A DNA stretch of 46,324 bases from an uncultured Bacillota bacterium (lineage in GTDB: Bacteria; Bacillota; Clostridia; Christensenellales; Borkfalkiaceae): assembly GCA_949290895.1 (NCBI GenBank), contig CASETU010000168.1, positions 1 to 46,324 of the forward strand, given 5' to 3'. The translations under genes were made by a program, and so were the position numbers. Each line of letters starts with the position of its first letter. The first letter of the stretch is position 1. Below are positions 6,613 to 43,544 of the stretch, piece by piece. Below the pieces are notes generated by a model. The model made no database searches. It was not told the origin of the DNA and was given only the letters and a program-made list of their open reading frames with translations.

Positions 6613-6641
6613 TTGACAACATAATAATAATGGTATATACT
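6613..6641 (+). promoter_or_regulatory. Strong promoter of the nanE-DUF4127 operon
   Basis: TTGACA (6613-6618), 17-bp spacer, TATACT (6636-6641). An A/T-rich inverted repeat TGAAAATAATTTTTACA (6647-6663) lies at the predicted transcription start. A similar element sits at the same distance from the rpiR promoter. Confidence 0.85.
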
Positions 6642-6712
6642 AAGGCTGAAAATAATTTTTACATAAAAATATATGTTTGAAATTTTTTTTCATACAGAAA
6701 GGAAGGTCGTTC

Positions 6713-7387
6713 ATGAAAAACCGTATACCCAGAGGATTAATCGTTTCTTGCCAGGCAGCTAAAGGAGAGCCGCTTTACGGTTGTGACGTCATGCATTATT
6801 TTGCGCGGTGCGCGGTCGCGGGGGGCGCGGTTGCGATTCGCGCGCTGGCGGACGAAATACCCAGCATAAAAAAGGAAGTTTCCGTGCCAGTGATCGGACT
6901 TATTAAAAAGGATTATGCCGACAGCGAGGTGTATATCACGCCGACAAAGGATGAAATCGACCGTCTTTTGGAAACGGGATGCGAAGTCATCGCGATGGAC
7001 GCCACGGCGCGCCCCCGTCCTTTCGGCGAAACATTAAAAGAACTGGTTTCTTACGTTCGTTCCTTGAGTGAAAACGTGCAGCTGATGGCGGATATCGATA
7101 ATTATGAAAACGCCTTAACGGCGGAAGCGCTGGGCTTTGACTACATTTCCACAACGCTTCGCGGATTCACGAAGGAAACCAAGGGAATTCAAATACCCGA
7201 TTTTGATTTTATTGAAAAGCTGATAAAAGATTGTAAGGCGAACGTCATCGTGGAAGGCGGTATTTGGGAAAGAGGACAGTTGGAACGGATTTCTTCGTTC
7301 AACCCGTACGGAGTGGTCATCGGAACTTCTATCACGCGGCCGAGAGACATTACGCGGCGCTTTTCCGAAGTATTGCAACTAAAATAA
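6713..7387 (+). CDS. nanE: N-acetylmannosamine-6-phosphate 2-epimerase
   Basis: A 224-residue cytoplasmic TIM-barrel enzyme that converts ManNAc-6-phosphate to GlcNAc-6-phosphate. NanE hallmarks are present: SCQA (Q14), R43, GLIKKDY with the catalytic Lys66, MADIDNYENA, FDYISTTLRGFT, VEGGI with Glu181, and the phosphate-binding VIGTSITRP. Together these match the known active-site set of characterised NanE enzymes. Start 6713 is chosen for AAAGGAAGG spaced well ahead of the ATG; the upstream in-frame ATG 6677 has no ribosome site. It is the first gene of the long operon reaching 20129, with a ROK kinase downstream that could supply its substrate. Function is confident; the glycan feeding it is unknown. 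Confidence 0.95.
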   Translation: MKNRIPRGLIVSCQAAKGEPLYGCDVMHYFARCAVAGGAVAIRALADEIPSIKKEVSVPVIGLIKKDYADSEVYITPTKDEIDRLLETGCEVIAMDATARPRPFGETLKELVSYVRSLSENVQLMADIDNYENALTAEALGFDYISTTLRGFTKETKGIQIPDFDFIEKLIKDCKANVIVEGGIWERGQLERISSFNPYGVVIGTSITRPRDITRRFSEVLQLK

Positions 7388-7454
7388 AGGTTTGTTTTCG
7401 TATGTTTTTCGGTAAGGTTGAAAAACGCGCGGGAGCAGAAATGAAAACATAAAG

Positions 7455-7503
7455 TGCGGCACGGAAAATGTGCCGCAATCAAAAAGAAAGCGGCGGGTGC
7501 CGC
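7455..7503 (+). promoter_or_regulatory. Tandem intercistronic hairpins before the DUF4127 gene
   Basis: A perfect 8-bp hairpin, TGCGGCAC/GTGCCGCA (7455-7462 with 7470-7477), is followed by GCGGC/GCCGC (7490-7494 with 7499-7503). The second hairpin abuts the AGGAGA ribosome site at 7504-7509. The four arms can also pair crosswise. No T tract follows, so it is not a standard terminator. The gap also encodes a 16-codon reading frame (7401-7451), which I do not claim as a gene. Effects on mRNA stability or translation are inference. Confidence 0.5.
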
Positions 7504-7514
7504 AGGAGAAAAGA

Positions 7515-9023
7515 ATGCGTAAGATCGTATATTTGCCTTTGGACGAAAGGCCGTGCAACGCGAAGTTTCCGGAAAAATTACTGCGGGGGAACGAGGAGTT
7601 CAAACTCGTGACCGCGCCGCGGGAAATACTCGGGGATAAAAAGACGCCGGCATCCTATGAAAAAATCGAGGAGTTTCTGATAAAAGAAACGAAAGACGCC
7701 GACTGCCTGGTGCTTTCCGTGGATACGCTCTTATACGGCGGCATCGTGCCGAGCAGACTACATTTTTACAGCGTTGAAGAATTGAAAGAGCGGCTGAATT
7801 TAATCAAAAAACTGCGCGCGTGTAACGAAAAAATGGTCGTTTACGCGTTTCATCTGCTAATGCGTTGCCCGCAATATTCCAGCGACGACGAAGAGCCCGA
7901 TTATTACGGCATTTGCGGCAGAGAAATATTTTTGGTAGGCGAAGCGCGCGACAGGCGCGAGCTTGCCCTTCCTTACGATGCGGAAAAGCTTGCGGAAAAC
8001 GAAAGGAAAGTCGCACCGTATCTAAGCGATTATCTCGCCCGCCGTGCCGTCAATTTACAGTTGGATTTTGCCAGTGTGGATATGGCGGGAAAGGAAATCG
8101 ATTATCTCGTGCTCCCGCAGGACGATTCCAGCGTATACGGGTTCATCGCGCAGGATCAGCGCAAGATACGCGCTTACGTGAAGGAAACGCATAAGCAAAA
8201 CGTTACGGCGATTTATCCCGGTTGCGACGAAACGGGCATGACGCTCGTTGCAAGATATATTAACTCCGTCAAAGGCACGCCGCGCGTGCGGCTGCGTTGG
8301 GCAAGCGCGTTCGGTCCGGCGGTAATTCCTCTTTACGAAGACAGACCAGTAGGGGAAACGGTAAAATACCAGCTTACAGCGGCGGGGTGTGTGCTGGACG
8401 ACGACGCGGATTTTACGCTTTTTATCAATGTGCCGTCGAAAGATATGGTCAGCGCCAACACGTCGGGGACGTTCCGTTCTTATGAAGTGGAGCGCTGCCT
8501 CATCGAATTTACGCAGAATATCGAATATCGCATGAACAAAGGCGAAAGAGTCGCCGTAGCGGACATCGCGTACGTCAACGGCGGAGATACGGAACTCGTC
8601 GGCATGCTGGAAGAAAAAGACTGTCTCATGCGGCTTGCGGCTTACGCGGGCTGGAATACCAGTTCCAACACGTTGGGTACGGCGATCTTTCAGGCGTCGA
8701 TGTTCACGCATTTCGGCAAAACGGAAGCTCACGAGCAGTTTCTCGCACTGAGATATTATGAAGACGTAGGGTATTGTTCCCGCGTACGCAAACAGCTTTG
8801 CGAAGAATTTCTCCCCGGTATCGGGCTCAATTATTTTAACGCGGGAGGAAAAGACGGCGTCGTGGCAGATAAAGTAAAAGAGGAATTAAACGGTTATATA
8901 GGTTCGTTGCTCCCGAGCGTGGCGTGCCGCTACAAAGTGGAAAAAGCGGTGCAGCCGTGGGCGAGAATGTTTGAAACGGACCTCGATATTATCAAGATAA
9001 GGAGTGAAACATGCAAACGGTAA
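7515..9023 (+). CDS. DUF4127 family protein
   Basis: A 502-residue protein of normal length for DUF4127 (PF13552), a family without an established activity. It begins with the conserved N-terminal block YLPLDERPCN and continues with LSVDTLLYGGIVPSR and LPQDDSSVYG, where conserved Asp and Arg residues could form an active site. PGCDETG and AYVNGGD follow. There is no signal peptide or membrane helix, so it should be cytoplasmic. AGGAGA precedes ATG 7515. Its end overlaps the next gene by 13 bp, which suggests coupled translation. Its position between nanE and a secreted glycosidase-like protein suggests a role in processing an imported amino-sugar glycan, but no reaction can be assigned from sequence. 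Confidence 0.88.
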   Translation: MRKIVYLPLDERPCNAKFPEKLLRGNEEFKLVTAPREILGDKKTPASYEKIEEFLIKETKDADCLVLSVDTLLYGGIVPSRLHFYSVEELKERLNLIKKLRACNEKMVVYAFHLLMRCPQYSSDDEEPDYYGICGREIFLVGEARDRRELALPYDAEKLAENERKVAPYLSDYLARRAVNLQLDFASVDMAGKEIDYLVLPQDDSSVYGFIAQDQRKIRAYVKETHKQNVTAIYPGCDETGMTLVARYINSVKGTPRVRLRWASAFGPAVIPLYEDRPVGETVKYQLTAAGCVLDDDADFTLFINVPSKDMVSANTSGTFRSYEVERCLIEFTQNIEYRMNKGERVAVADIAYVNGGDTELVGMLEEKDCLMRLAAYAGWNTSSNTLGTAIFQASMFTHFGKTEAHEQFLALRYYEDVGYCSRVRKQLCEEFLPGIGLNYFNAGGKDGVVADKVKEELNGYIGSLLPSVACRYKVEKAVQPWARMFETDLDIIKIRSETCKR

Positions 9024-12000
9024 AAAGAAAGGTGATATTGTTGCTGCTTTCCGTCGTGCTTGCCGCGACCTGCGCGAGCGTGCTTGCGACCTTCCGTCCG
9101 ACGGAAGCGCTTGCGGCGGACGCGACGTTTACCCTGAACGGTTCTTCGCACGTGATCAATACCACTGACCCGTGGGAAATCAGCGAAGGCGAAGCCTCTT
9201 GGGGCGTGTTGAAGATCAATTCTTTCCGCGCCGATGCGGAAGGATATTCTGGCGGCATCGTGTACACCACGAAATGGCTTTACTCGCATACGCCCGTAAG
9301 GGAAAACGCTTACGAATATGCGTTCGAGTATTCCGGCAGCAAATACGTGCTCAGCGAGAAGAACCGCGGCGGCAATACTTATATTCCCGTCAACGGGCTT
9401 GTCATTTCGCTGACGGAAAACGACGAAAAGTGGGAATCCGCGGCGATCGGCACGGCATTGCAGAAAAACGTATATTTCCCCGATTACGCGGGCGCGATAG
9501 AAATTTACGGTACGGGTACCAGCGATAAGGTGACCGATAAGACCGTACGTATCGGTATCGACAAGATAAACGGCAGAAGAGATGAAGGCGAAGCCGTGTA
9601 TTATAACAGCGAATGGGGCACGCAGACGCAGCAGAACGAGTTCGGCGCGGAAATTTTGTGCTCTTTGCAGGAAGACGGCAGCTTTAAGATCATGGAAGTG
9701 CGCAACGTCCGCGATACGAATATGTCGGATATCGGTTCGCGCGATTTCGTTTTGAGCATTCACGGTTCCCGCCGCGTTCTGCTCGGTAACGACCTTGTTT
9801 CCCGCGTAGGGGATAAAGTGGAACTCGTCGGCATGAAATTCGTCGATTTGAACAAATCCGCGTCTCTCAAACTTACGGCAAAGAATCCGACTGCGCCCGT
9901 CAAAGACACCGACCTCGACGATTTGAACGGAAATTTGCCCTTCCCCGGGTATCGCGCGGAAAACTATTTCATGTATTACGATAAAAATTACGATAAATCG
10001 AACAACCCCGCCAGCGCGAAATTTTCAAACTTTACAGGGTGCAACGAATGGGGTTACGAAATTCTCGTTCGCAAGACGAGCAGCGGCGATGCTTATCCCA
10101 TTGAAGGCGTCATCGAATCGCATGCAAAGCAGGTGGATAATCTTTTGAGCGACGGCGAGTCCTTCATTTTGTCGGGCAACGGCTCAGCGGAAACCTTCCT
10201 TACGGCAAACGCCCTTAACGGTGCGCGCGTCACAGTGGCGGAAGACGGTACGGTCACCATCACCACTACGCCCGATTCTTACGTAACGACTGCCGTCAAC
10301 CGTTATGCAACGGTCAATTCCAAACTGCAATCGGCTATCGACGCGAAATATAAGCTCAACGAAAACGTGGAAGAACTGTGGGCGGGCTATAAGGATTCCG
10401 CCGATGCGCTCATCGGTGAAAGCGCGGACGGCGAAGCGGTGGAAACGCTTTACGGTTATGCGAAAAAAATCGCCCGTCAGGAAGAAGAGGGCATTATCGA
10501 CAACGTGACGCTCGCCGATTTTTACGGCAGTTACCTCGAAGTGCTCAACCTTTGCTACCGCATCGAAAGTCTTTCCTATCAGGCGCCTGCGGTCATGAGC
10601 ATTGCGGCATGGCACCGCCCCGTCATCGGCAAGGAAACGAGCGCGGCGGATATCCGCGAAACGCTGGAGCTTTTCAAAAAAGTCAATTTCAACACCGTAT
10701 ATTTGGAAACGTTCTGGAACGGTTATTCGATGTCGTCGGACTCCGAATATGTCGACTATCATATTGAATTCAAAAACTGCGATTACAGCCCGTATAAAGA
10801 TTATTTGAGCGCATTTATCGGTGAAGCGCACAAGCTCGGCATCGAAGTGCACGCCTGGGTGGAAGATTTCTTTGTCGGGTATGAAGGTTATGAAGAATCT
10901 AACATTTTGACGGGGCAGCTTCCCAACAGCGACGAGCTCGCGCCCGACGCGGCAGAGCGGAGCGGCTGGGTTATAACCGATTATCAAGGCAATCAGTACA
11001 CGCAGTTCGAGGGCGGTAAATATAAGTTCATCGACCCGTCCAATCCCGATGTCAGGGCGTTCCTGCTCGGATATTATAAAGAATTGCTGACGGAATACGA
11101 TCTTGACGGAATCAACCTCGACTATATCCGTTATCCCGTGCAAAACGGTTACGGTTACAGCGCGGACAACAAAAACGTGCCGTACGATCACGGTTATTCG
11201 GAATACGCCGCCAAAAAGTTCCTCGCGGAACAAGGCTATGCCGAAAATCAGCAGACGCTTGCAAAACTCAAACGCGATTTGAACAAGGGAACGAGTTTCG
11301 TTTGGGAAAAACTGTATAGCGCATGGATGGATTTCAAAGTCCGTCAGATCAACGAGTTCGTAAAGGAAATTTACGACATGGTGCGGGAAGTAGAGACGAT
11401 GCGTGGCGGTTCGGCGGAAACGTATTCCAATACCGACGTCATCATGTCCACCTCGGTTTTCGCCGATAGCGACGTAGTTACGAAAAAATGTCAGGATTGG
11501 GAATACTGGTTCAAACAAGGCTGGATAGAAGTCGCCACGCCGATGGCGTATTACCAGAATGCGAACACCGTTACGCAGAAAATCGCGGCGATGATCGCAA
11601 AGCTCGACAATATCAGCTATAACTACGGCGGCATTGCCCCGTACTTCATGGGTATGAACCCTTATGAAGAAGTCGTACAGGCGGTCGCCGCGCTGAGCGG
11701 CGGTTCCTTCGGGACGGTCATATTCGATTCGAAGACTATCATGAACAGTCCCGAGGCGGTGGAGTATCTTTCCAACGGTATTTACGGTAACGCGGCAATC
11801 CTTCCGCATAAGAGCATCGATAAACTGCTTGCGGCGTTCGCGGAGGAGATGAAGTCGAGAAAGGAACTTTACGCTATCGAAGGCGATAAGGCTGTGGCAT
11901 GGGATGCGGCGCTCGACGCGCTGAAAGAAATGCCTTTCGGCACTGCGGAAGAGATCATGGCAATCCGTGCGGAAGTTTACCGTATACAGACCAACGCGCG

Positions 12001-12331
12001 CGATTATGCTTCGGGGTACGCCATTACGCGTATCGCGGAGGAAATGGAAAATCTCAATAACGTTTTGGATGTCAAACTCTCGCGTTATTATATCGACAGC
12101 GGGGAATGGGTTCCCGCGGACGGATTGCGTCCCGATCAGGTCGCGCCGGGGCCCGACCCCACGCCCGATCCCGATCCGGAGCCCACGCCCGAACCCGAAA
12201 AGGGCGGCTGCAAGGGCTGCAATTCTTCGGCGGAATTCGCTTCGGCGACGCTGGCGGTAATCTTGAGCGGAATCGCTCTCGTGCTCTTCGGTAAGCGCGC
12301 GAAAAGAGCGGATAAGGCAAATAAAAATTAA
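9011..12331 (+). CDS. Large secreted, surface-anchored GHL10/DUF187 glycosidase-like protein
   Basis: An 1106-residue exported protein. The N-terminus is a signal peptide (basic MQTVKRK, a hydrophobic run, cleavage probably near ALA-ADA). Residues ~40-420 are beta-rich and unrecognised; ~430-520 look helical. From ~525 a GHL10 (DUF187) TIM barrel follows with AAWHRP, HAWVEDFF, GINLDYIRYP (about 699-708) and ATPMAYY, as in YngK-type proteins. The C-terminus has a Pro/Asp/Glu-rich spacer (~1045-1065), GGCKGC, one membrane helix (~1077-1095) and a basic tail, so the protein is probably held on the cell surface. It likely cleaves or binds a glycan outside the cell before import. Catalysis is not proven for all GHL10 members. 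It overlaps the DUF4127 gene by 13 bp. Confidence 0.85.
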   Translation: MQTVKRKVILLLLSVVLAATCASVLATFRPTEALAADATFTLNGSSHVINTTDPWEISEGEASWGVLKINSFRADAEGYSGGIVYTTKWLYSHTPVRENAYEYAFEYSGSKYVLSEKNRGGNTYIPVNGLVISLTENDEKWESAAIGTALQKNVYFPDYAGAIEIYGTGTSDKVTDKTVRIGIDKINGRRDEGEAVYYNSEWGTQTQQNEFGAEILCSLQEDGSFKIMEVRNVRDTNMSDIGSRDFVLSIHGSRRVLLGNDLVSRVGDKVELVGMKFVDLNKSASLKLTAKNPTAPVKDTDLDDLNGNLPFPGYRAENYFMYYDKNYDKSNNPASAKFSNFTGCNEWGYEILVRKTSSGDAYPIEGVIESHAKQVDNLLSDGESFILSGNGSAETFLTANALNGARVTVAEDGTVTITTTPDSYVTTAVNRYATVNSKLQSAIDAKYKLNENVEELWAGYKDSADALIGESADGEAVETLYGYAKKIARQEEEGIIDNVTLADFYGSYLEVLNLCYRIESLSYQAPAVMSIAAWHRPVIGKETSAADIRETLELFKKVNFNTVYLETFWNGYSMSSDSEYVDYHIEFKNCDYSPYKDYLSAFIGEAHKLGIEVHAWVEDFFVGYEGYEESNILTGQLPNSDELAPDAAERSGWVITDYQGNQYTQFEGGKYKFIDPSNPDVRAFLLGYYKELLTEYDLDGINLDYIRYPVQNGYGYSADNKNVPYDHGYSEYAAKKFLAEQGYAENQQTLAKLKRDLNKGTSFVWEKLYSAWMDFKVRQINEFVKEIYDMVREVETMRGGSAETYSNTDVIMSTSVFADSDVVTKKCQDWEYWFKQGWIEVATPMAYYQNANTVTQKIAAMIAKLDNISYNYGGIAPYFMGMNPYEEVVQAVAALSGGSFGTVIFDSKTIMNSPEAVEYLSNGIYGNAAILPHKSIDKLLAAFAEEMKSRKELYAIEGDKAVAWDAALDALKEMPFGTAEEIMAIRAEVYRIQTNARDYASGYAITRIAEEMENLNNVLDVKLSRYYIDSGEWVPADGLRPDQVAPGPDPTPDPDPEPTPEPEKGGCKGCNSSAEFASATLAVILSGIALVLFGKRAKRADKANKN

Positions 12332-12355
12332 AAATCAAAACAGGGGAGGCAAAAT

Positions 12356-14323
12356 ATGAGCAAACAAAAAAAGATGAAATTTTGGGCAGTTCTATGTCTG
12401 GGCGTGATTCTCGCCTTCAGCAGTGTGATGCTCGTCGCATGCAAGAAGGAAGAGGAAAAACCCCAAACTGTCACTTATGAAGTGACTTTCGATTCGCAGG
12501 GCGGTTCCGCCGTTGCGAAACAGACGGTGGAAAAGGGCGGCAAAGTGCAAAAACCCGCCGATCCCACGTATGCAAAGCACGAGTTTGTCGCATGGTATAA
12601 GGAAAGCGCGTGCACGAACGAATGGAAATTCGATACCGATACGGTGAATGCCGATACGACGCTCTATGCGAAATGGCAGGAAGTCGCGGGCGAGATCGCC
12701 TGGGAAGTCGGAGAAATGCCCGTTATTTACTCCGACGCGGCTCTTTATAACAAGACTCGCGCGGGCGAAGATGTGTTTACAAACCTTTTGAGCGACGTCG
12801 TCGTGGCAACCGAAGACGGCGAACCTTTGCAGACTATCGTTTACGATATCGGCGGTCTGGCGAGAAATGAGGAAACGGGACTGATAGAAGCAAAGGATTA
12901 TACCATAACCTATCAGGCACAGAACAGCATGGGCGACGTTTTGGAAAAGGAAGTCACGTTGACGGTGGTTGACGCTTCCGAAACCAATTACTATGTGGAA
13001 TTCAAGTCTGCGCGCGGCGGCAAGGGTATGGAAGACGTGGTCGGAACGCGTATCCGTGTTGCGGAAAATATGTATTTTGAATCGACTGCGGACGGCGAAC
13101 TGCCCGAAGCGCTCAAGAACCCCAATGCGGAAGGAAAAATTCGCGATTACGACGACCCGTTTATTTTGAAAAACGTTTCGGAAAATCCGATGACCGTCAA
13201 CCTGCAGGATACGGCGGCGACCTACCTCGTCTTTGAAAAAGGCGGCAAGGTGGTCTGGGGATATGAAGGCGTCATGGCATATACCGTGGACGAAAACAAT
13301 ATGTTCCCGACTCGTTTGGAAGTTCCCACGACGTTTGAAATCCCCGTCGGAGGATACGCGCTGGTGGTGGGTTATACGCAAAACGGCAACTGGTATGCTT
13401 ACTCTGCGGACGGCAAAGCCGTGGCGGCGGGCGATTACTGGGGCGATAAAGACATGGGTAACATGTGGGATATCGACGGCCGTCAGATGACGTATATGGA
13501 CGGAATGTACCGTTACGGCAACATGGTCCGCATCACGAAGGGCGGCGAAACCGTTACCGACGCTTATGTGAATCAGCTTCCGTATATCATGAAGGGCACG
13601 GCAGCTTACGAAGTCGTACAGAACACGTCTCTCACCAAAGAAGACCTTTTGAGCGACGTAGAATTTTACGACGATAACGGTACGTTCGCTCCCGACGTTA
13701 AGGTCGGTGCGGATAAGATAGCCGTGGACGATACGTCTTTCAATGCCGTCAATACCGCGCAGATAGGGGAATATACCGTGAAGTATATCGTCACCGATGC
13801 GACGGACGGCGCGCTGAAAGCGGAATTCGAAAGAACGGTGAAGGTCATTTTCCCCGAACATTACGTGCAGTTTGCCGATCAGCTCTATAACGAACCTAAA
13901 TTTATGTACAATCAGCAAAGCGAATCTTCCACCGGTTCTATCCGCGTGTACGATACGAGTTTCGAAGGCTCTGTACCGACCGGACTCGGCTGGATTTACA
14001 ACGCCGTCATCGACAAGACGACGGGCGCTTTGATTAAGTTTGCGGATTGGAGCTATATTTATACAGTCGTGGACGGAACGGTGGTAAAAACCGACGTAAC
14101 CGATGCGGGCACGGGTAAAACCGTTGCTGGAGAATTTTTTGCGGCGCTTGAAGATAATCAAATGCTGGTGATGTTCGAACAGGGTACGGGATTCCGTACA
14201 TGGTTCAGCGCTCTCGGCGGCACAGCCCCCGAAAAGGCATTCCTGACCGACGCGGCGAAATTTGCGGAAGTTAAAATCGTCATCAAGGACATGTCGGGCG
14301 TCAACGTTCCCGCCAACGCTTAA
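12356..14323 (+). CDS. Surface lipoprotein with an InlB-type (Listeria-Bacteroides) repeat and Ig-like domains
   Basis: A 655-residue lipoprotein. The signal peptide ends in the lipobox LVAC (Cys29), followed by a charged linker. Residues ~40-105 form one InlB B-repeat (VTFDSQGGS ... FVAWYKE ... TTLYAKW). The remainder is beta-rich, with two segments that resemble bacterial Ig-like domains (EYTVKYIVTDATDG near 470). No catalytic motif was seen. It probably binds the glycan or presents it to the nearby binding protein; that role is inferred from position. GGGGAGG precedes the ATG. It lies 24 bp after the GHL10 gene and is separated from the next gene by a GC-rich hairpin. Confidence 0.8.
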   Translation: MSKQKKMKFWAVLCLGVILAFSSVMLVACKKEEEKPQTVTYEVTFDSQGGSAVAKQTVEKGGKVQKPADPTYAKHEFVAWYKESACTNEWKFDTDTVNADTTLYAKWQEVAGEIAWEVGEMPVIYSDAALYNKTRAGEDVFTNLLSDVVVATEDGEPLQTIVYDIGGLARNEETGLIEAKDYTITYQAQNSMGDVLEKEVTLTVVDASETNYYVEFKSARGGKGMEDVVGTRIRVAENMYFESTADGELPEALKNPNAEGKIRDYDDPFILKNVSENPMTVNLQDTAATYLVFEKGGKVVWGYEGVMAYTVDENNMFPTRLEVPTTFEIPVGGYALVVGYTQNGNWYAYSADGKAVAAGDYWGDKDMGNMWDIDGRQMTYMDGMYRYGNMVRITKGGETVTDAYVNQLPYIMKGTAAYEVVQNTSLTKEDLLSDVEFYDDNGTFAPDVKVGADKIAVDDTSFNAVNTAQIGEYTVKYIVTDATDGALKAEFERTVKVIFPEHYVQFADQLYNEPKFMYNQQSESSTGSIRVYDTSFEGSVPTGLGWIYNAVIDKTTGALIKFADWSYIYTVVDGTVVKTDVTDAGTGKTVAGEFFAALEDNQMLVMFEQGTGFRTWFSALGGTAPEKAFLTDAAKFAEVKIVIKDMSGVNVPANA

Positions 14324-14337
14324 AAAAGTAAATCGGT

Positions 14338-14362
14338 AAGGGCGCGGCTCAGCCGCGCTCTT
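14338..14362 (+). promoter_or_regulatory. Intercistronic stem-loop before the substrate-binding protein gene
   Basis: An 11-bp GC-rich hairpin (14338-14348 with 14352-14362, one G.T wobble, 3-nt loop) is followed by A residues, not T, so it should not terminate on this strand. Such hairpins often protect mRNA ends and raise the level of a binding-protein transcript; that function is inference. Confidence 0.6.
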
Positions 14363-14381
14363 AAAAAACCGGAGGTGCATC

Positions 14382-15938
14382 ATGAAAAAAATTCTGATAT
14401 TTTTAATGTGCGCGCTGTTTGCAATCGGAACATTTTCCGGCTGTAATTTTAAAAAGACGGAGCGCGCGAAAGTCGACCCCGATGCGGACGTGTCGCAGAA
14501 AATCGACCTTAAAATCCTTCTGCCGTACGTTTCGGACAGCATGCAGTCCAACAAAGCCATTCCCCTGATCAACGAAATCACGGGATATAACACCACCTAC
14601 GATCAGCTGCCCACAGGCTCGGCTGCGGAAACCAACATCAACAACCTTTTTGTCGATAAGGATAAGACCTATAACGCGCTGAAACTCACCAAGAACCAGT
14701 TCAACCGCTATGCGGTCAAGGCGGCGGCGTTTGCGGACCTTAGCGACGTGCTGGCGTCTCCGAAATTTTCCGTGATGAAAAACGCCATCAGTCCCGAAGC
14801 GTGGGCAGCCGTTTCTTTTGACGGAAAGATCCTCGGCATACCCGACAGCGCGTCCAACAACAACATCGATAAGTCCATCATCATCCGAAAGGATTTGATG
14901 TATAAATTAGTCAACGAGCGCACGGGAAAACCCTTTACCGAAGTGCCCGATACGCTGGAAGATTTCGTGGAACTTTTGAAGGCTTTCAAAAAGTCCACCG
15001 GTTCGAACACGGCATTCAGCCTGCCGAGCAACATTTACGTGGTCGGTCCCATCGCCGCGGCGCTGGGAATCGAGCAGGAATGGTCGGAAGTGAACGGTCA
15101 GCTCACCTATCTCGCCGAGCATCCCGAATTGCAAGATTATGTCGATTTTATGAAACAGCTCCGTTCGGAAGGGCTTTTGGATATGGCTATGCAGTCCAAC
15201 TCCTTCCAGACCTGTGCGCAGAACTTTGCGCAGGGCAAGTCCATCGCCACGCTGTCGAATTTCTGGGAAATGGCCACGGTGGACGCGCAGCTCGAAGCGT
15301 ATTCTAAAGTAACCGCCGACTGCGTGGATTTCGCCTATGCGTTTGAAAACGAAGACGGAGAAAAGCTCACTTGGCAGTCGAGCGGTGTAAGCTACGTTAC
15401 CGTCATACCCAACTGGATGGCTGATACCGGCACACACGTCATGTATTATATCCAGGAAAAGCTCCGCGACGAAAACTTCGTGCGCATCGTGGCGGGGGAT
15501 TTGGGTACGCATTACAAATACAACAGCCTGACAAAGGAATACGAACCGCTGCCCGCTTTTGCGGAAGATAAAACCAGTGCGGATCATTTCCTTACGGGTA
15601 CCAACGACAATATTTACAACACCTATTGGACGCAGATCGTCATCAAGGGCAACGACAATTATTATATGCAGTGGAAAGCCACCAACACCGACGCTTTTGC
15701 CGACGGGCTGAAGGGTGTGCTCAATCCCGTAGCCTTCGCGCCTGCTTTGGAAACGTATTCCTCGCATGCTGCGGGCATGGAAGATTATTTCAACGCGGAA
15801 ATCACGAAAATGATTTACGGTTCGGACGCGTCCGTCACGGTGGACAGCATCAAGGCGGGGTGGATTGCCGCCGGCACGCAGGAGTCTGTCGACGAGATCC
15901 GCGCCTGGTACAATAACGCAAAGGAAGTCAACGGATAA
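14382..15938 (+). CDS. Extracellular sugar-binding lipoprotein of ABC importer (first system)
   Basis: A 518-residue substrate-binding protein of the LplA-like CUT1 group. The signal peptide has the lipobox FSGC (Cys21), so the mature protein is tethered outside the membrane. The body follows the two-lobe family pattern: NEITGYN near the start, SFDGKILGIPD, IIIRKDLM, DTLEDFVELLKAFK, and a C-terminal helical region. GGAGGTG stands 6 nt before the ATG. Two permease genes follow without a gap, so this is the ligand-capturing part of one importer. No ATPase gene accompanies it. The ligand is probably an oligosaccharide released by the surface proteins upstream; its identity is unknown. Confidence 0.9.
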   Translation: MKKILIFLMCALFAIGTFSGCNFKKTERAKVDPDADVSQKIDLKILLPYVSDSMQSNKAIPLINEITGYNTTYDQLPTGSAAETNINNLFVDKDKTYNALKLTKNQFNRYAVKAAAFADLSDVLASPKFSVMKNAISPEAWAAVSFDGKILGIPDSASNNNIDKSIIIRKDLMYKLVNERTGKPFTEVPDTLEDFVELLKAFKKSTGSNTAFSLPSNIYVVGPIAAALGIEQEWSEVNGQLTYLAEHPELQDYVDFMKQLRSEGLLDMAMQSNSFQTCAQNFAQGKSIATLSNFWEMATVDAQLEAYSKVTADCVDFAYAFENEDGEKLTWQSSGVSYVTVIPNWMADTGTHVMYYIQEKLRDENFVRIVAGDLGTHYKYNSLTKEYEPLPAFAEDKTSADHFLTGTNDNIYNTYWTQIVIKGNDNYYMQWKATNTDAFADGLKGVLNPVAFAPALETYSSHAAGMEDYFNAEITKMIYGSDASVTVDSIKAGWIAAGTQESVDEIRAWYNNAKEVNG

Positions 15939-15940
15939 AA

Positions 15941-16882
15941 ATGACGACGAAAGGTAAAACGCAAAACGGCAGTTTCAAAAGGTACGGGAATCTTTTGCTT
16001 TTGACGTTGCCTGCGGTCATACTCGCTTTTGTGTTCTGTTATGTCCCCATGTCGGGCCTTATCATGGCGTTCAAGGAAGAGATAGACCTTACGGAATACG
16101 ATACGGCGGTGCAGTCCATCATCATGACGCCGTGGAGCGGTTTCGCGCAGTTTGAAAAACTCTTTGCCGCGAACTCCGACTTCATGCGCATTTTAGGCAA
16201 CACGCTCTATATCAGCGTTTTGAAAATCCTGCTCGTCTTTCCCATACCCATTTTGCTCGCCATCATGATCACCGAGGTGCAGAGCCGCCCCGCGTCCAAG
16301 GCGATACAGTCCATCATCTATCTGCCGCACTTTCTGTCCTGGGCGATCGTAGCAAGCGTGTTTGAAACCTTCATGCACCCGAACGTCGGTGCGCTCAATA
16401 CCCTGCTCCATGCGATGGGGCTGGGCACGGTGAATCTCTCCGACGCGCAGCAGTTTCCCTGGCTTATGGTGCTCACTACGGCGTGGAAGGACATCGGCTG
16501 GTCTGCGGTCGCGTACATCAGCGCGGTGCTGGCGATAGACCAGGAACAGTTCGAGGCGGCGCGCATCGACGGCGCGGGCAAGGTCAAGCAGATATTTTAC
16601 ATCACCCTGCCCGGTATCGCCGGCACGATCGCGGTGCTCTTCATCATGCGTATCGGTTATCTGATGGACGCGGGTTTTGAACAGATATACGCCATGCTCA
16701 CGCCTACGGCGGAATCGACGGGCGAAATCATCGGTACGTATATTTATAAACTCGCTATCAAGAACGGCGGCAGTTATGCGCTGACGACGGCGGCGGGGTT
16801 GTTCAACTCCGTAGTCGGACTTATTTTGGTCGTCGGCGGAAATCTGTTCTGTAAAAAAGTTTTCAAAAGGAGTATATGGTAA
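15941..16882 (+). CDS. Sugar ABC importer permease, LplB type (first system)
   Basis: A 313-residue polytopic inner-membrane permease. The cytoplasmic EAA loop that contacts the ATPase reads EQFEAARIDGAGKVKQIFYITLP. Six membrane segments are expected: the first is at ~17-38, and the rest are spread through the BPD_transp_1 domain. Length is normal for the LplB subgroup. The start codon is 2 bp after the binding-protein stop and lacks a strong ribosome site, so it is probably translationally coupled. It pairs with the next permease to form the channel. Confidence 0.93.
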   Translation: MTTKGKTQNGSFKRYGNLLLLTLPAVILAFVFCYVPMSGLIMAFKEEIDLTEYDTAVQSIIMTPWSGFAQFEKLFAANSDFMRILGNTLYISVLKILLVFPIPILLAIMITEVQSRPASKAIQSIIYLPHFLSWAIVASVFETFMHPNVGALNTLLHAMGLGTVNLSDAQQFPWLMVLTTAWKDIGWSAVAYISAVLAIDQEQFEAARIDGAGKVKQIFYITLPGIAGTIAVLFIMRIGYLMDAGFEQIYAMLTPTAESTGEIIGTYIYKLAIKNGGSYALTTAAGLFNSVVGLILVVGGNLFCKKVFKRSIW

Positions 16883-16883
16883 A

Positions 16884-17762
16884 ATGGCAACCGCAAGAAG
16901 CTGTACCAAAAGCAGAGGGGACGTAGCCTTCGGCATAGTAAACGGATTTCTGCTGTTCTTGTTCGCGCTGTTTACCCTTATGCCCATAGTCAATATCCTC
17001 GCAACAAGCCTTTCCACCCATTCGCTGCCCGTCGTGTTCTGGCCGGCGAAGTGGGACGGGTTCGCTCTTTTAAGCGTACTCACCGAGCCGAAGTTTTATC
17101 AGGCGTTTTTGGTCAGTATCGTCGTCACGGTCTGCGGAACGATCGTCAGCGTGCTCTGCATGATGCTAGCCGCCTATCCGCTGTCGAAACGGGAATTGCC
17201 CCTCCGCCGTACCATCATGATATACTTTTTCATTTCGATGTTGTTTTCCGGCGGCATGGTGCCCAATTACATTCTCGTTTCCTCGCTCGGCCTGACCAAC
17301 ACGCTGTTCGCCATGATTTTGCCGAATGCCGTCATGGTGTTCCACCTCATCTTGATGAAGGCGTTTTTTGAAGGTATTCCTCCCGCGCTGGAGGAGTCCG
17401 CCCGCATCGACGGCGCGGGCAATTTGCGCATTCTTTTCAGTATCATCATGCCGATATCCATGTCGATGATCGTCACCGTATGTTTGTTTACTGCCGTGGT
17501 GTATTGGAACAACTACTTCAATGCGCTGATGTATATTTCGGCGTCGCATTCCGAACTGTATCCCTTGCCTTTTTATATCATCAACCTTTCGGATCAGTTC
17601 CGCGACCCCAACGCGCCTATCGTTATGGGCGATAAGTTCAAATACGAACAAAATATCATCGCCGCCACAATCATCTTGTCCATGCTCCCCATCTGCCTGA
17701 CTTATCCGTTCTTTTTGAAATACTTTACCAAAGGCGTGGTCGTCGGGGCGGTGAAGGGATGA
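16884..17762 (+). CDS. Sugar ABC importer permease, LplC/YtcP type (first system)
   Basis: A 292-residue second permease of the importer, with the EAA loop PALEESARIDGAGNLRILFSIIMP and the family-typical C-terminus YFTKGVVVGAVKG. The first membrane helix lies at ~17-38. AAAAGGAG precedes the ATG by about 11 nt, within the end of the preceding gene. Its last codons overlap the ROK kinase start by 4 bp (ATGA), a direct link between uptake and phosphorylation of the sugar. Confidence 0.93.
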   Translation: MATARSCTKSRGDVAFGIVNGFLLFLFALFTLMPIVNILATSLSTHSLPVVFWPAKWDGFALLSVLTEPKFYQAFLVSIVVTVCGTIVSVLCMMLAAYPLSKRELPLRRTIMIYFFISMLFSGGMVPNYILVSSLGLTNTLFAMILPNAVMVFHLILMKAFFEGIPPALEESARIDGAGNLRILFSIIMPISMSMIVTVCLFTAVVYWNNYFNALMYISASHSELYPLPFYIINLSDQFRDPNAPIVMGDKFKYEQNIIAATIILSMLPICLTYPFFLKYFTKGVVVGAVKG

Positions 17763-18607
17763 CGGAGCGCGTCATAGCCCTCGATATCGGGGGTACGTTC
17801 ATCAAAAGAGGCGTATTTATCGGAGGAAACCTCGTCGAAACGGCGAAATTTCCTACGCGGGCACAAAGTCTGCAAACGATTCAAAGCGCCGTCGCGCAGT
17901 CGGTGGAATGCTGGAAATACGGAAATATCGACGGGATCGCCGTTTCCAGCGCGGGGGATATTGACCCTTATCGCGGGCGTTGCGTTTACGCGACGGACAA
18001 TCTGAGAGGTTATTCGGGTTTCGATATCAAAAATTGGCTGGAAGAAAGATACGGCGTACGCGCTTCCGCTCTCAACGACGGGCATGCCGCCCTTCTGGGC
18101 GAGGCGTACCGCCGCAAACTCGATGTGCCCGCCGTCATGCTCACCCTCGGAACGGGGGTGGGCGGCGCGTATTTCGACGGTAAAGAAGTCGTGTTCGGCG
18201 AAGATTTTCGTTACGGGCGGTTCGGTCATCTCGTAATGCGTCCGAACGGCAAAACGTGTAACTGCGGACAGCGCGGCTGTATCGAGCAGTACGTCAGCGC
18301 GAGCGCGCTGAAAGAAAAGTGCGCCGCGGCGGGGACCGTTCCCGAAAAGGTGTTTTTCGGCGAAGACGCGCGTTCTCGCGCCGTTGCCGACGAATGGTTA
18401 AACGATTTGTGCGAGGCGATGGAAACCGTTTACCGCGCACAGAAATACGAACTCATGATTTTCGGCGGCGGCGTGTGCGGTTCCGCGCAGCGTTGGCTGC
18501 CGTTGTTAAGGCAAAAAACTTCCCGCCGCGCGGAAATAAGCGTACTGCTGAACACTGCGGGCATGGAAGGCGCTTATCGCTGGTGGTGCAAAAATGGAAA
18601 AAATTAA
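17759..18607 (+). CDS. ROK-family sugar kinase, probable N-acetylmannosamine kinase
   Basis: A 282-residue cytoplasmic ATP-dependent sugar kinase. Visible are the phosphate-binding DIGGTFIK (residues 9-16), LNDGHAALLGE with catalytic Asp107, LTLGTGVGG, and the ROK zinc signature with H157, C167, C169 and C174 (GHLVM then CNCGQRGC). The Glu that usually precedes the zinc His in ExGH is Arg154 (GRFGH); in ROK kinases that position contacts the sugar, so specificity may differ from glucokinase. ManNAc is favoured because nanE is in the same operon; glucose, mannose, fructose or GlcNAc kinase remain possible. It overlaps the permease by 4 bp and the flavoprotein gene by 14 bp. Confidence 0.85.
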   Translation: MTERVIALDIGGTFIKRGVFIGGNLVETAKFPTRAQSLQTIQSAVAQSVECWKYGNIDGIAVSSAGDIDPYRGRCVYATDNLRGYSGFDIKNWLEERYGVRASALNDGHAALLGEAYRRKLDVPAVMLTLGTGVGGAYFDGKEVVFGEDFRYGRFGHLVMRPNGKTCNCGQRGCIEQYVSASALKEKCAAAGTVPEKVFFGEDARSRAVADEWLNDLCEAMETVYRAQKYELMIFGGGVCGSAQRWLPLLRQKTSRRAEISVLLNTAGMEGAYRWWCKNGKN

Positions 18608-20129
18608 AGCTGACGTTATCGTGATCGGCGCCTCGCTCGGCGGAACGCTGGCGGCGTACGCCGCATGTACGGAGGGCATGCGTTGTGTCCTCACGGAAGA
18701 GACCGACTGGATCGGCGGACAGCTGACTTCGCAGGCGGTCCCTCCCGACGAACATAAATATATCGAAACGACGGGTTGCAGCGCTACGTATCACGCTTAC
18801 CGCGAAAAGGTGCGGGCGTGGTACAGAAATCACCCGTTTATCGCGGACGAGCTTAAGGAAAAAAAGTTTTTCTGCCCCGGCGGCTCCTCGGTGTCTCGTT
18901 TGGCGCACCCGCCGAAACTCGCGCTTTCCTTTCTGGAGGAAATGCTCAAGCCTTTTACAGACGCGGGATTGTTAAATATTTTGTATAACGTCAAAGCCGT
19001 TTCCTGCCACACCGACGGTGATTTTATCCGCAGTGTGACGGTGAAAGGAGAAAAGGGCGAATTTTTGCTGGAGGGGAAATACTTTCTCGACGGTACCGAC
19101 ACGGGCGAGCTCCTGCCGCTTTCCGGGACGGAATATGTCACTGGCGCGGAATCGCGCGGGGAAACGGGGGAGGCGCTCGCTCCCGAAAAGGGCGATCCCC
19201 TCGATATGCAGCCCGTTACGTACGTCGCTGCGTGCGATTGGGAAGACGGGACAGAGCGCGTTATCGAAAAGCCCTATGCGTATGAGTATTTCCGCAAAAT
19301 GCGTATGCCGTACGACGATTATCCCGTGCTCAGCATGTATGGGCCCGATTCTTCTACGGGGCGGGCAAAACGATTCGGTTTTTTCAACGGGGAAAAGGAC
19401 GAAAAGGGAAATCCGCTCTTCGGATTGTTCACCTATCGCAGGATTGTGTCGTCTCATCATTTCAAAGCGGGGTTTGCGCCGAAAGACGTTACGCTCATCA
19501 ACTGGCCGCAAAACGATTATTTTATGGATAACGTATTTGAATCGGCAAACGACGCGGAAAATCTCGAAATGTCCCGTCAGCTAACACTTAGCCTGATTTA
19601 CTGGTTGCAGACGGAAGGCGGTTATCGCGGGCTGGGGCTCAACAAGGAAGTACTGGGAACGGCGGACGGGCTGGCAAAACAGCCTTATATCCGTGAATCG
19701 CGGCGTATCCGTGCAAAGTATACCGTTACGGCGGAAAATATCATCGATAAGGGAGACCCTTCTCCCGCCGTATTGCCGCAAAGCGTGGGCGTGGGATTAT
19801 ATCATATCGATCTGCACATCACCACGCGGACGCATTCTTTCTTTTTCCGTCCCGCGCGTCCCTTTACCATACCGCTGGGCGCATTGATTCCCGTCCGCAT
19901 GAAAAATCTCCTTCCCGCTTGCAAGAACATCGGCACGACGCACCTCACCAACGGCTGTTTCCGCTTGCACCCCGTCGAATGGAACGTCGGCGAATCCGCA
20001 GGATATCTGGCGGCGTTTTGCGCACGGGAAAACTTGCTTCCTTTTGAGGTCTCGGAACGGAAAGAGAGCTTTTCACGTTACGAAGAACTGTTGCACGAAC
20101 GGGGTATTCAGACGCGTTGGGAGCTCTAA
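18594..20129 (+). CDS. FAD-dependent oxidoreductase (PF12831-like)
   Basis: A 511-residue flavoprotein. The N-terminal FAD-binding Rossmann fold reads VIVIGASLGG (G12, G16, G17) with acidic E35 after the second strand and IGGQLTSQ, the family's conserved GGQLT-type turn. A second block LDGTDTGELLPLSG is typical of PF12831, and the C-terminal NVGESAGYLAAF closes the FAD fold. No signal peptide, so cytoplasmic. The family has few characterised members; the substrate could be the imported sugar or a sugar acid. It is the last gene of the long operon, overlapping the ROK kinase by 14 bp. No clear terminator follows, but a new promoter starts 26 bp downstream. Confidence 0.85.
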   Translation: MEKIKADVIVIGASLGGTLAAYAACTEGMRCVLTEETDWIGGQLTSQAVPPDEHKYIETTGCSATYHAYREKVRAWYRNHPFIADELKEKKFFCPGGSSVSRLAHPPKLALSFLEEMLKPFTDAGLLNILYNVKAVSCHTDGDFIRSVTVKGEKGEFLLEGKYFLDGTDTGELLPLSGTEYVTGAESRGETGEALAPEKGDPLDMQPVTYVAACDWEDGTERVIEKPYAYEYFRKMRMPYDDYPVLSMYGPDSSTGRAKRFGFFNGEKDEKGNPLFGLFTYRRIVSSHHFKAGFAPKDVTLINWPQNDYFMDNVFESANDAENLEMSRQLTLSLIYWLQTEGGYRGLGLNKEVLGTADGLAKQPYIRESRRIRAKYTVTAENIIDKGDPSPAVLPQSVGVGLYHIDLHITTRTHSFFFRPARPFTIPLGALIPVRMKNLLPACKNIGTTHLTNGCFRLHPVEWNVGESAGYLAAFCARENLLPFEVSERKESFSRYEELLHERGIQTRWEL

Positions 20130-20222: not shown

Positions 20223-21041
20223 ATGATAGGAAAAGTATTTGACCGCATCCAGTCGGTGCGGCCCGTCGCTACCAAAACGGAAAAAAAACTCATAGATCAT
20301 ATTTGCAGGATCGATAAAAAGGATTTGATTTACCTCTCCATCACCGACCTTGCGGATATGCTCGGCGTGGCGGAGGCCACGATACTGCGGTTCTGCCGAA
20401 AGCTGGAATTCAAAGGTTTTCAGGACTTTAAGCTGCACCTCAGCCAGGATATCGTATCGGAAAACGAAGATGTTCAAGGTATTCCGCAAAGCATTGCCGA
20501 ACAGATGATCGGCGCCATCAAGGAAACTTGCGAGCAGATCGATTATCAGAAATGTCTGGAAGTCGCCGATCTCATCATCGGCGCGCGGAAGGCGTGCGTC
20601 TTTGCGGTGGGCAATTCCACCATCGCCACGCACGAGGCAAAAAACCGATTGATGAAAGCGGGCATCAATTTGGAAGATTCCTGCGACGTGCACAATCAGG
20701 CGATCATTACTGCAAATTTAGGCAAAGAGGATCTGCTCATTTTAGTCAGCGTGAGCGGGAGCACGAAGGATATCATACATCTTGCCGAGATCGGCAAGGA
20801 AAACGGCACGCCTATCGTGGTCATCACGAACTATTCCAAATCGCCTCTCGCAAAATTTGCCGATTACGTTTTGCTTTCCTGTCGAAAGGAGGCGGCGTAC
20901 GAAGGCGGTTCGCTGGCGACGGTAGTCGCGCAGTCTTATATCATCGACGTGCTTTGCACCGCGGTGTTCGAGCGGATCGGCAGCGAGGCAAAGCGCAAAT
21001 CCATCAAGGCGAGCAACGCCGTTTCGGATAAATCTGTATAG
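20223..21041 (+). CDS. MurR/RpiR-family transcriptional regulator
   Basis: A 272-residue regulator. The N-terminal ~80 residues form the RpiR helix-turn-helix (ITDLADMLGVAEATILRFCRKLEFKGFQDFK). The C-terminal SIS domain (about 110-245) carries VFAVGNSTIATHEAKNRL and LVSVSGSTKDI, the phosphosugar-binding loops. Such proteins sense sugar phosphates, so ManNAc-6-P or a mannose phosphate made by this locus is a sensible ligand. AAAGGAGA precedes the ATG. It is co-transcribed with the alpha-mannosidase 12 bp downstream and probably controls that gene, itself and perhaps the nanE operon. Family is firm; ligand and targets are inference. Confidence 0.92.
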   Translation: MIGKVFDRIQSVRPVATKTEKKLIDHICRIDKKDLIYLSITDLADMLGVAEATILRFCRKLEFKGFQDFKLHLSQDIVSENEDVQGIPQSIAEQMIGAIKETCEQIDYQKCLEVADLIIGARKACVFAVGNSTIATHEAKNRLMKAGINLEDSCDVHNQAIITANLGKEDLLILVSVSGSTKDIIHLAEIGKENGTPIVVITNYSKSPLAKFADYVLLSCRKEAAYEGGSLATVVAQSYIIDVLCTAVFERIGSEAKRKSIKASNAVSDKSV

Positions 21042-27092: not shown

Positions 27093-28859
27093 TTGTATAA
27101 GAAAAAAAGCAGAATCGTATTGAACGGGGTAATCCTGCTCATCGTAATGTTGTTATTCAGCGCGGCGGTGCTTGCCCTTATGTTCGGCGAACAGCGGAAG
27201 AGCACGAAAAGCCTCATTGAAAACGTAGCGAAAAGCGTGGCGGAAGATTTGAACAGTCAGCTCAATTTGATAAATCAACTCAACAAAGCGGTTTTTCTTT
27301 CTTACGAAATGCAGGATATTTTCGAGGAATATCGAGACGCATTGTATGCCGACAGCGACGCGGATGCTTCCGACATCGCGCTTCGCGCGACGAATTTCAT
27401 CGACAACTATGTCCAGCTCGATCAGTCGCTTATCAAGGAGGTGGCTTATATTCCCAAGACGGAAAGCGGCGCTTACGATATATATCATACGCTTTATTAC
27501 GGGCTGAACGTCGATACGGTTTCGCAAAATCTCGCACTTGTGGTAAATACGGCGCAAAAGGAAGAATATGCGCGTGGCGGTTTGTTTGTCGTGGACTTTT
27601 TATATCAGGATTTGACCAGCAGTAATTTTTACGCGTTCGGGCGGAACGTTTTGGAACTCCGTCCCTATTCTTCAGAGTATATGCAGAACACAGGGATAGG
27701 GGTTGTGGCGATCAATAAAAGCAGTCTTTTAAATACGCTCAACAGGAAAGACGCATTAAAAGGTCTTGAGGTATGCGTGCTTTACAAGGATAAGGTTTTC
27801 CTGGAAACGGAAAACGGATTTTCCGCAGAAAAACTACAAGAAAAAAATTATTTCGTTTCCGAAAAATATTTGACCGGATTTGACGCGAGCGTCATTGCTT
27901 ATTACGGTTACGACGCGTATTTTGCCGGGATTTTACGTTCGACTGCGGGTACGGCTCTCATCGTACTTACCGTATGCGTAGCGATTATGCTGTTTTTTAT
28001 TTTTGCCAACCGCAGGACCAGCAAGGCGTTACGTTTTTTGTTCGACGAGTTTTCGGAAATCAAAACCAAAAACAAGGTTCGGCATATCGAGTATACCAAA
28101 AACCGCGAAGTGGATAACGTCATAGAAAATTTCAATTTGATGGCGGACTCGCTTACGGAACTCAACACCGAAGTCCTCGAAGAAAAGAACAAGTCGCTGC
28201 AGTTGCAGGTGGAAAACATTGAATTTGAGCTGTCCAGCCTGTACGCGCAGATCAACAAACATTTTCTCATCAACGTGCTGAGCGCGGTGCGCGCGCTGGT
28301 CAACGCGGGCGAAGCGGAAAAGGCGAAAAGCTGTTTGGAAAACCTCAGTGAGTTTTTGCGGTATTCCCTTTCGGAAGACAAATCGTCCACGGTAGCAAGG
28401 GAAATGGAAAGTTTGGCATGCTATATGAATATACAAAAAATCCGTTTTCCCAAAATCGAGTACGAGGCGGTTTGCGAAGCAGGTGCGGGAGATTTTCCGT
28501 TACAGAAGATGATTTTACAGCCCGTCATAGAAAATTGTTTCGTACATTCCATAAAGAACAAACGCGGCAAGATAAGGGTCGTGTGCCGCATGCGTCCCGA
28601 CGGCGTGGGCATTTTCGTCATCGACAACGGGGAGGGTATGACGAAGGAGCGCGAACACCGCGTGAACGAGGATTTACGCGGTAATTTTGAAAAGGCGAAG
28701 AAAAAAGAAAAAGGTAACCGCATCGCACTTGTCAATATACAAAAGAGAATAAAACTGACTGCAGGCGAAAAGTCGTTTGTGCGGCTGAAAGCGTTGAACG
28801 GCGGGGCGATGACGTATATCCGTTTGGTATGGAGAAAAGGAGAGGATAAAGATGTTTAA
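27093..28859 (+). CDS. YesM-type sensor histidine kinase
   Basis: A 588-residue membrane sensor kinase. One helix at ~9-31, an extracytoplasmic sensing region to ~282, a second helix at ~284-305, a linker/HAMP-like stretch, then the His_kinase domain with QINKHFLINVL (phospho-acceptor H390) and an HATPase domain (LQPVIENCFVHS N-box, VIDNGEGM G-box). The family usually has QINPHFLYNTL; here Pro is Lys, and Tyr-Asn-Thr is Ile-Asn-Val. The start is a TTG with AAGGAAG 7 nt upstream; no closer ATG fits. It overlaps the response regulator by 8 bp. In this family the kinase senses a glycan or its breakdown product and switches on the adjacent importer genes. Confidence 0.92.
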   Translation: MYKKKSRIVLNGVILLIVMLLFSAAVLALMFGEQRKSTKSLIENVAKSVAEDLNSQLNLINQLNKAVFLSYEMQDIFEEYRDALYADSDADASDIALRATNFIDNYVQLDQSLIKEVAYIPKTESGAYDIYHTLYYGLNVDTVSQNLALVVNTAQKEEYARGGLFVVDFLYQDLTSSNFYAFGRNVLELRPYSSEYMQNTGIGVVAINKSSLLNTLNRKDALKGLEVCVLYKDKVFLETENGFSAEKLQEKNYFVSEKYLTGFDASVIAYYGYDAYFAGILRSTAGTALIVLTVCVAIMLFFIFANRRTSKALRFLFDEFSEIKTKNKVRHIEYTKNREVDNVIENFNLMADSLTELNTEVLEEKNKSLQLQVENIEFELSSLYAQINKHFLINVLSAVRALVNAGEAEKAKSCLENLSEFLRYSLSEDKSSTVAREMESLACYMNIQKIRFPKIEYEAVCEAGAGDFPLQKMILQPVIENCFVHSIKNKRGKIRVVCRMRPDGVGIFVIDNGEGMTKEREHRVNEDLRGNFEKAKKKEKGNRIALVNIQKRIKLTAGEKSFVRLKALNGGAMTYIRLVWRKGEDKDV

Positions 28860-29604: not shown

Positions 29605-29618
29605 AACACATTAAACAG
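29587..29618 (+). promoter_or_regulatory. Candidate AraC-type direct repeat before the second importer operon
   Basis: CATTTAACTC (29587) and CATTAAACAG (29609) agree at 7 of 10 positions and are 22 bp apart, about two helical turns, the layout expected for an AraC-type protein. No convincing sigma-A promoter is visible in 29605-29689, which fits activator dependence. The motif is short and A/T-rich and may be chance. Confidence 0.25.
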
Positions 29619-29689
29619 CTAAAAAGGCACCATTTTTCTTTGCCGTAAAGTATGGGAAAATAAAGGTGAAAAGAAAGGAGCGTGCCGTA

Positions 29690-31539: not shown

Positions 31540-31563
31540 ATAGATATCGATTAAGGAGGAAAT

Positions 31564-35096: not shown

Positions 35097-35098
35097 AC

Positions 35099-36985: not shown

Positions 36986-36991
36986 GTTTTG

Positions 36992-37007
36992 AACGCAAAA
37001 AAGCGTT
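36992..37007 (+). promoter_or_regulatory. Small intercistronic hairpin
   Basis: AACGC (36992-36996) pairs with GCGTT (37003-37007) across an all-A loop. It is short and lacks a T tract, so it is unlikely to terminate. Confidence 0.3.
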
Positions 37008-37030
37008 TCTGATAAAAAAGGAGGGAGAAA

Positions 37031-40155: not shown

Positions 40156-40161
40156 GCTTTT

Positions 40162-40190: not shown

Positions 40191-40195
40191 GGCGT

Positions 40196-43543: not shown

Positions 43544-43544
43544 T

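Follow-up and report, generated by a model that had tools for sequence, protein, structure and literature searches.

A 46,324-nucleotide contig of an uncultured Bacillota bacterium (Clostridia, Borkfalkiaceae; CASETU010000168.1), here called the window over its whole length, carries an operon that combines nanE, whose product is a predicted N-acetylmannosamine-6-phosphate (ManNAc-6-P) 2-epimerase, with genes for a DUF4127 protein, a GHL10 protein, an ABC importer, a ROK sugar kinase and a flavoprotein. DUF4127, NanE, the ROK kinase and the importer, often together with the flavoprotein, are found linked time and again in Bacillota and Mycoplasmatota. The operon is real, conserved, widespread and uncharacterised, and it is tentatively read, at a little under an even chance, as a system for using an amino-sugar glycan in which DUF4127 would release N-acetylmannosamine (ManNAc) ahead of the ROK kinase and NanE.

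A scan of a species-genome collection gave 446 places encoding DUF4127 relatives, 80 of which were read with flanks of up to 10 kb; together with nine regions from the window's own order, they yielded 61 non-redundant loci (loci and genomes are given below by L and G numbers). Neighbours were counted by homology to the operon members and a simple chain of open reading frames (ORFs), and many flanks are short, so that the counts are lower bounds. NanE lies within about 10 kb of DUF4127 in at least 38 of the 61 loci, and in 34 of these 38 both genes belong to the same directon, as judged by the rough ORF chain. The conserved DUF4127-nanE linkage claimed in an earlier note on this DNA, for which a neighbourhood search had been set beforehand as the test, is therefore confirmed. 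Near DUF4127 were also found ROK kinases (30 loci), RpiR regulators (29), permeases (29), the flavoprotein (18), GHL10 (18), GH20C (12), and GH84, GH38 and NAGPA (9 each). In an even draw of 397 Bacillota genomes besides that of the window, in which NanE was counted by full-length hits, DUF4127 exceeds the family cut-off in 68 (69 of 398 with the window's genome), NanE is present in 46, and both occur in 27, where about 8 would be expected. NanE is thus found in 27 of the 68 genomes with DUF4127 and in 19 of the 329 without it (Fisher p = 6e-12, uncorrected for ancestry), and 12 of the 27 have their nearest pair 8.5 kb or less apart on a single contig. DUF4127 is rare in the window's own order (6 of 297 genomes, the window's included).

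NanE joined DUF4127 more than once, at least twice: the most parsimonious history on the NanE tree has about seven switches between linkage to DUF4127 and other contexts, such as linkage to NanA, and at least two of these switches are forced by well-supported branches. Repeated formation of the pair makes a stronger case for a functional tie than a single inherited operon would. On the DUF4127 tree, from which L086 and L087 were left out as near-copies of the clade with L042 and L066, linkage to NanE is gained or lost at least 11 times, a count that short flanks inflate. In these four loci a PF07221 gene of the GlcNAc 2-epimerase (AGE-type) family, whose members have several substrates, takes the place of NanE, and the clade lies inside the NanE-linked Clostridia, which corresponds to one event; L051 has a PF07221 gene on the opposite strand.

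The promoter-like site and the genes of the unit are as follows.
6613 to 6641, plus strand: promoter-like site of the sigma-70 type, TTGACA-17-TATACT (11 of 12 in a consensus scan; a match only).
6713 to 7387, plus strand: nanE, ManNAc-6-P 2-epimerase (PF04131, 8.8e-48; PRK01130, 1.2e-74).
7515 to 9023, plus strand: DUF4127 protein without evident signal peptide, proposed to release ManNAc (PF13552, 5e-137).
9011 to 12331, plus strand: GHL10 glycosyl-hydrolase-like protein, secreted, with a hydrophobic C-terminus (PF02638, 8.8e-16).
12356 to 14323, plus strand: surface lipoprotein with a List_Bact repeat and an Ig-like domain (PF09479, PF16403).
14382 to 15938, plus strand: lipoprotein, presumed solute-binding protein (SBP) of the importer, judged by its position ahead of the permeases and by similarly placed homologues.
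15941 to 16882, plus strand: ABC importer permease A, CUT1/UgpA-like (PF00528, BPD_transp_1; UgpA model).
16884 to 17762, plus strand: ABC importer permease B, UgpE/GlcU-like (PF00528, BPD_transp_1).
17759 to 18607, plus strand: ROK sugar kinase, by context a ManNAc kinase (PF00480, 3e-30).
18594 to 20129, plus strand: FAD-dependent oxidoreductase, FAD_oxidored (PF12831, 2.6e-88).
20223 to 21041, plus strand: RpiR-type regulator with HTH_6 and SIS domains (PF01418, PF01380), in the same place in G112.
21054 to 23984, plus strand: GH38 alpha-mannosidase-family enzyme (PF01074, 2.4e-74), in the same place in G112.

The nine genes from nanE to the flavoprotein, whose families the earlier note had named, were all found in place and identified, by profile searches except for the presumed SBP, and the strong promoter that it had postulated coincides with the top promoter match of the region. 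Most genes of the operon overlap or lie less than 60 bp apart, except for a gap of about 127 bp between nanE and the DUF4127 gene. The genes of the proposed nine-gene operon thus stand, whereas its end at 20129 is ruled out, because G112, a genome from a different family of the same taxonomic order, shows the gene order NanE-GH84-DUF4127-GHL10-lipoprotein-SBP-permA-permB-ROK-FADox-RpiR-GH38. With RpiR and GH38 assigned to it on the basis of this shared order, the conserved unit is longer than first described and, judged by gene order, reaches the end of GH38 at 23984. The core proteins compared are 48-80% identical between G112 and the window, and one GH84 gene is inserted in G112. In gut Clostridia, RpiR-GH38 lies directly 5' of NanE-DUF4127-GHL10 (L023, L024, L025, L026, L028, L036, L069), and GH38 is located upstream of NanE-DUF4127 in L021, L023-L026, L028, L036, L054 and L069. 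The GHL10 protein exceeds its profile cut-off (PF02638, 58.3 bits versus 27.9), and the presumed SBP gave no Pfam match and no PDB match. The gap between nanE and the DUF4127 gene contains an inverted repeat, TGCGGCAC...GTGCCGCA (7455-7477), with no run of T on the plus strand, which is a possible processing or attenuation site.

Translation of nanE most likely starts at the ATG at 6713, behind AGAAAGGAAGG, the TTG at 6677 being disfavoured. The protein exceeds the cut-offs of both PF04131 (162.5 bits versus 27) and PRK01130 (250 versus a curated 189), and in a profile search it is the sole full NanE match in the genome. Alignment to the solved S. aureus enzyme equates its Q14, R43, K65, D127 and E181 with Q11, R40, K63, D124 and E180; the active-site residues are all present, and the protein is predicted to be a ManNAc-6-P 2-epimerase. 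Q14, R43 and E181 had already been listed correctly, but the catalytic lysine is K65 and not K66, since K66 is the counterpart of Arg64 in that enzyme.

The DUF4127 protein matches its family profile over nearly its full length (PF13552, 457.8 bits versus 27, positions 1-488 of 489). Alignment of 63 homologues shows 48 invariant columns rich in Asp, Glu and Arg, and such invariant acidic and arginine residues are as an enzyme would have. An AlphaFold model of high confidence (predicted local distance difference test score, pLDDT, 95.4; predicted template modelling score, pTM, 0.95) has no clear structural relative in the PDB (best Foldseek TM score 0.2), and a PDB sequence search gave no credible match. 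VIA reached a best Z of 8.4 over part of the chain, pairing the halves 1-250 and 253-417 with SGNH hydrolases, periplasmic binding proteins and response regulators; these matches were taken as a common alpha/beta arrangement only, and an assignment of function from the fold was rejected. Profile comparison detected no relation between DUF4127 and the flavoprotein, and a literature search returned no paper for DUF4127, PF13552 or N-acetylmannosaminidase. Three tandem DUF4127 genes with GHL10 genes on their flanks are found in a metagenome-assembled genome of Acholeplasmataceae (L047:4773-9324).

The unit is proposed to be a catabolic operon for a ManNAc-containing amino-sugar glycan. GHL10 and the surface lipoprotein would act outside the cell, and the CUT1-type ABC importer, whose substrate is putative, would take up oligosaccharides. 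These would be trimmed or modified by GNAT acetyltransferases and by cytoplasmic hydrolases, the set of hydrolases differing from one organism to another (GH38, GH84, GH20C, GH31, esterases, phosphodiester glycosidase). DUF4127, as a cytoplasmic core protein, would act just before the kinase and the epimerase and would most likely free ManNAc from a glycosidic bond. Its place one step from these two enzymes is suggested by the smallest units, composed of DUF4127-NanE-ROK and lacking the flavoprotein (L032, L062, L072), and the oligosaccharide-type permeases and several accessory hydrolases make ManNAc release the simplest reading of this putative reaction. The ROK kinase would then convert ManNAc to ManNAc-6-P, NanE would convert this to N-acetylglucosamine-6-phosphate (GlcNAc-6-P), and deacetylation and NagB would follow, with the flavoprotein as an optional redox partner for substrates that need an oxidised intermediate. 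Genes for NagA and NagB adjoin DUF4127 or lie close to it in L029 and L065, as does a NagB gene in L031, which points to an exit via GlcNAc-6-P. DUF4127 as a substitute for NagA was considered and not made the first choice, given that it coexists with NagA and NagB in these two loci; in favour of it, the window genome has no NagA match and its NagB gene adjoins a PIG-L deacetylase.

Several observations weigh against this proposal. Foldseek and VIA gave DUF4127 no clear match to a known glycosidase fold, and 41 of the 68 genomes that have it lack NanE, so that the family is not tied to ManNAc-6-P alone. The ROK kinase falls below the curated ManNAc-kinase cut-offs of NCBIfam (92 bits versus 283, and 74 versus 450), for which reason it is classed only as a ROK kinase, and its substrate could be some other sugar; glucokinase and beta-glucoside-kinase models score it nearly the same. 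Its PDB matches include several N-acetylmannosamine kinases as well as glucokinases, and the zinc-binding motif CxCGxxGCxE is kept (CNCGQRGCIE). The ExGH motif has the form RFGH both here and in G112, and RWGH in related Clostridia, Glu being kept in most Bacilli-type loci; the Arg in place of Glu may be a sign of an unusual sugar. Lastly, the window genome encodes a NanA-like protein on another contig (C130), beside a BNR_2 protein, so that the ROK kinase and NanE could also be supplied from sialate, and NanE may serve sialate in this organism.

Profile searches of the window's proteins found no neuraminate lyase. NanA and NagB are missing from the window, as noted earlier, but the genome has the NanA-like gene and one NagB, and the premise of the earlier note fails there; a profile search of the genome gave no NagA match. 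The BNR_2 gene is directly followed by the NanA-like gene and then by a lipoprotein gene (G000:C130, L105:1148-3075), possibly as a sialate or other sugar-acid operon of its own. On contig C6 (L102:1462-3036), a PIG-L deacetylase gene and a kinase-like gene precede nagB, and PIG-L may replace NagA in this genome.

These genes suggest an alternative, which we regard as unlikely, that in the window organism the operon belongs to the use of sialic acid or complex N-glycans: the NanA-like lyase would supply ManNAc to the ROK kinase and NanE, GH38 would trim mannose, and DUF4127 would be accessory. The NanA-like protein scores 233 bits to N-acetylneuraminate lyase and 129 to DapA and carries three signatures (KxTS as KFTS, GxDE as GKDE, and GTTFN), its pairing with BNR_2 is conserved in a near relative (G694, L130), the genome has a single full NanE, and GH38 lies inside the operon. 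An RpiR regulator also has a precedent in NanR of S. pneumoniae, which, according to PMC12713135, binds ManNAc-6-P. Against this explanation, 233 bits is under the curated cut-off of 281, and the BNR protein has no evident signal peptide and carries WPSIAR at the place of the RIP motif that sialidases carry. The conserved linkage itself would be left unexplained, since none of the 12 genomes with a linked NanE-DUF4127 pair has a NanA-level match (0/12; best DHDPS-family match, 178 bits), nor a DHDPS-family gene near that NanE. NanA genes adjacent to NanE score between 219 and 254 bits with the NanA model (G562, G316, G480, G691 and G686), and a match of 368 bits in G312 is on a contig other than that of its NanE. 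In G369, G669 and G685, DHDPS-family genes next to NanE have lower scores, so that the score by itself cannot exclude NanA; in the linked-pair genomes adjacency is lacking as well. A source of ManNAc-6-P independent of sialate is a reasonable inference for these genomes, and the DUF4127-NanE module appears to run mostly without sialate, a claim supported across genomes and weakened for that of the window.

The flavoprotein is far above its profile cut-off (PF12831, 297.6 bits versus 27). It has no PDB sequence relative, its structural matches are generic flavoprotein folds only, and a literature search for PF12831 found one paper, which is unrelated. It would have a central role if cleavage were oxidative, an explanation considered decidedly unlikely, in which it oxidises a glycoside of an N-acetylhexosamine (HexNAc), perhaps at C3, with DUF4127 as the lyase or hydratase; C2 could be re-protonated in either configuration, and NanE would return the ManNAc epimer to GlcNAc. 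Consistent with this, 18 of the 61 loci have the flavoprotein in the same directon, and the window's protein shares 46-51% identity with 26 operon-linked homologues. Pairing of a Gfo/Idh oxidoreductase with a xylose-isomerase-like TIM barrel is known from 3-keto-sugar routes, and the possibility is kept alive by a Paenibacillus clade (L070, L080, L081, L098) that has a Gfo/Idh/MocA enzyme and an AP_endonuc_2 TIM-barrel protein by NanE-DUF4127 instead of the flavoprotein. However, neither redox gene is present in many DUF4127-NanE loci within the stretch seen (some stretches being short), the flavoprotein fold is generic, and the 3-keto intermediate is hypothetical. Missing from many DUF4127-NanE loci, the flavoprotein is optional, and DUF4127 is the better candidate for a new reaction. 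Of the earlier proposal, that a ManNAc-containing glycan is used and that either DUF4127 or the flavoprotein carries out a new reaction, the recurrent linked set stands, and the new reaction is plausible as a prediction.

The only PDB relative of GHL10 is Cwp19 of C. difficile, a peptidoglycan lytic enzyme, which suggests another explanation, improbable and the least likely of those weighed, that the operon serves to break down bacterial cell walls: its substrate would be peptidoglycan, secondary cell-wall polymer or the linkage unit of teichoic acid (ManNAc is a constituent of the last two), and DUF4127 would attack fragments of that polymer. It would agree with the NAGPA phosphodiester glycosidase in nine loci, with O-acyl esterases in several, and with a double-domain GNAT beside or near DUF4127 in four, a make-up shared by the glucosamine/glucosaminide N-acetyltransferase of C. 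acetobutylicum. The comparison is with the enzyme of Reith and Mayer (2011), as cited in PMC4680927. However, the Cwp19 match is weak (23.5 bits), GH38 and GH31 suit mannose or glucose glycans better, and no ManNAc transferase of the WecG/TagA type exceeds the cut-off in the window genome (86% complete), so that the operon would have to act on a foreign polymer.

Compared with the nan operons (NanA-NanK-NanE with an RpiR-type NanR), the window's operon shares the NanE active-site residues, a ROK kinase, an RpiR regulator and a sugar importer, but it lacks NanA and sialidase and has DUF4127, GHL10, GH38 and the flavoprotein; the 12 linked-pair genomes likewise lack a NanA-level match. The N-glycan locus of S. 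pneumoniae, composed of an ABC importer, GH38 and a ROK kinase, resembles it, by description only, in its CUT1 importer, GH38 and ROK kinase, whereas the core here is DUF4127, NanE and the flavoprotein. With 3-keto-sugar pathways it has in common a sugar oxidoreductase beside the core, and the exact pair occurs in the one Paenibacillus clade; the window differs by its PF12831 flavoprotein and by a redox gene that is not obligatory, and a keto-sugar step would be hypothetical here.

The pairing of DUF4127 with NanE in genomes that have no recognisable neuraminate lyase gives the family a concrete candidate function, namely to bring glycan-derived ManNAc into metabolism without passing through sialic acid. 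It is common to take a NanE gene in gut or soil Firmicutes as a marker of sialic acid use, and the operon suggests that this reading can be wrong. Should DUF4127 indeed cleave glycosides of ManNAc, a new enzyme family would be at hand; the broader proposal, that DUF4127 is the first of a fold-distinct family cleaving glycosides of ManNAc or other HexNAc, alone or oxidatively with the flavoprotein, within a widespread sialate-independent ManNAc pathway of Bacillota, is more doubtful and rather unlikely to hold in full.

Two further regions of the window may be related to glycan use. At 28852-38779, a second importer (two permeases and a presumed SBP) lies behind a two-component system (HisK/AraC-type regulator) and is followed by two beta-helix proteins, which looks like another glycan-use cluster. 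At 39073-46138, a LacI-type regulator faces a run of SIS_2, PfkB, Gfo/Idh and GH20 genes, a candidate for a further amino-sugar cluster nearby.

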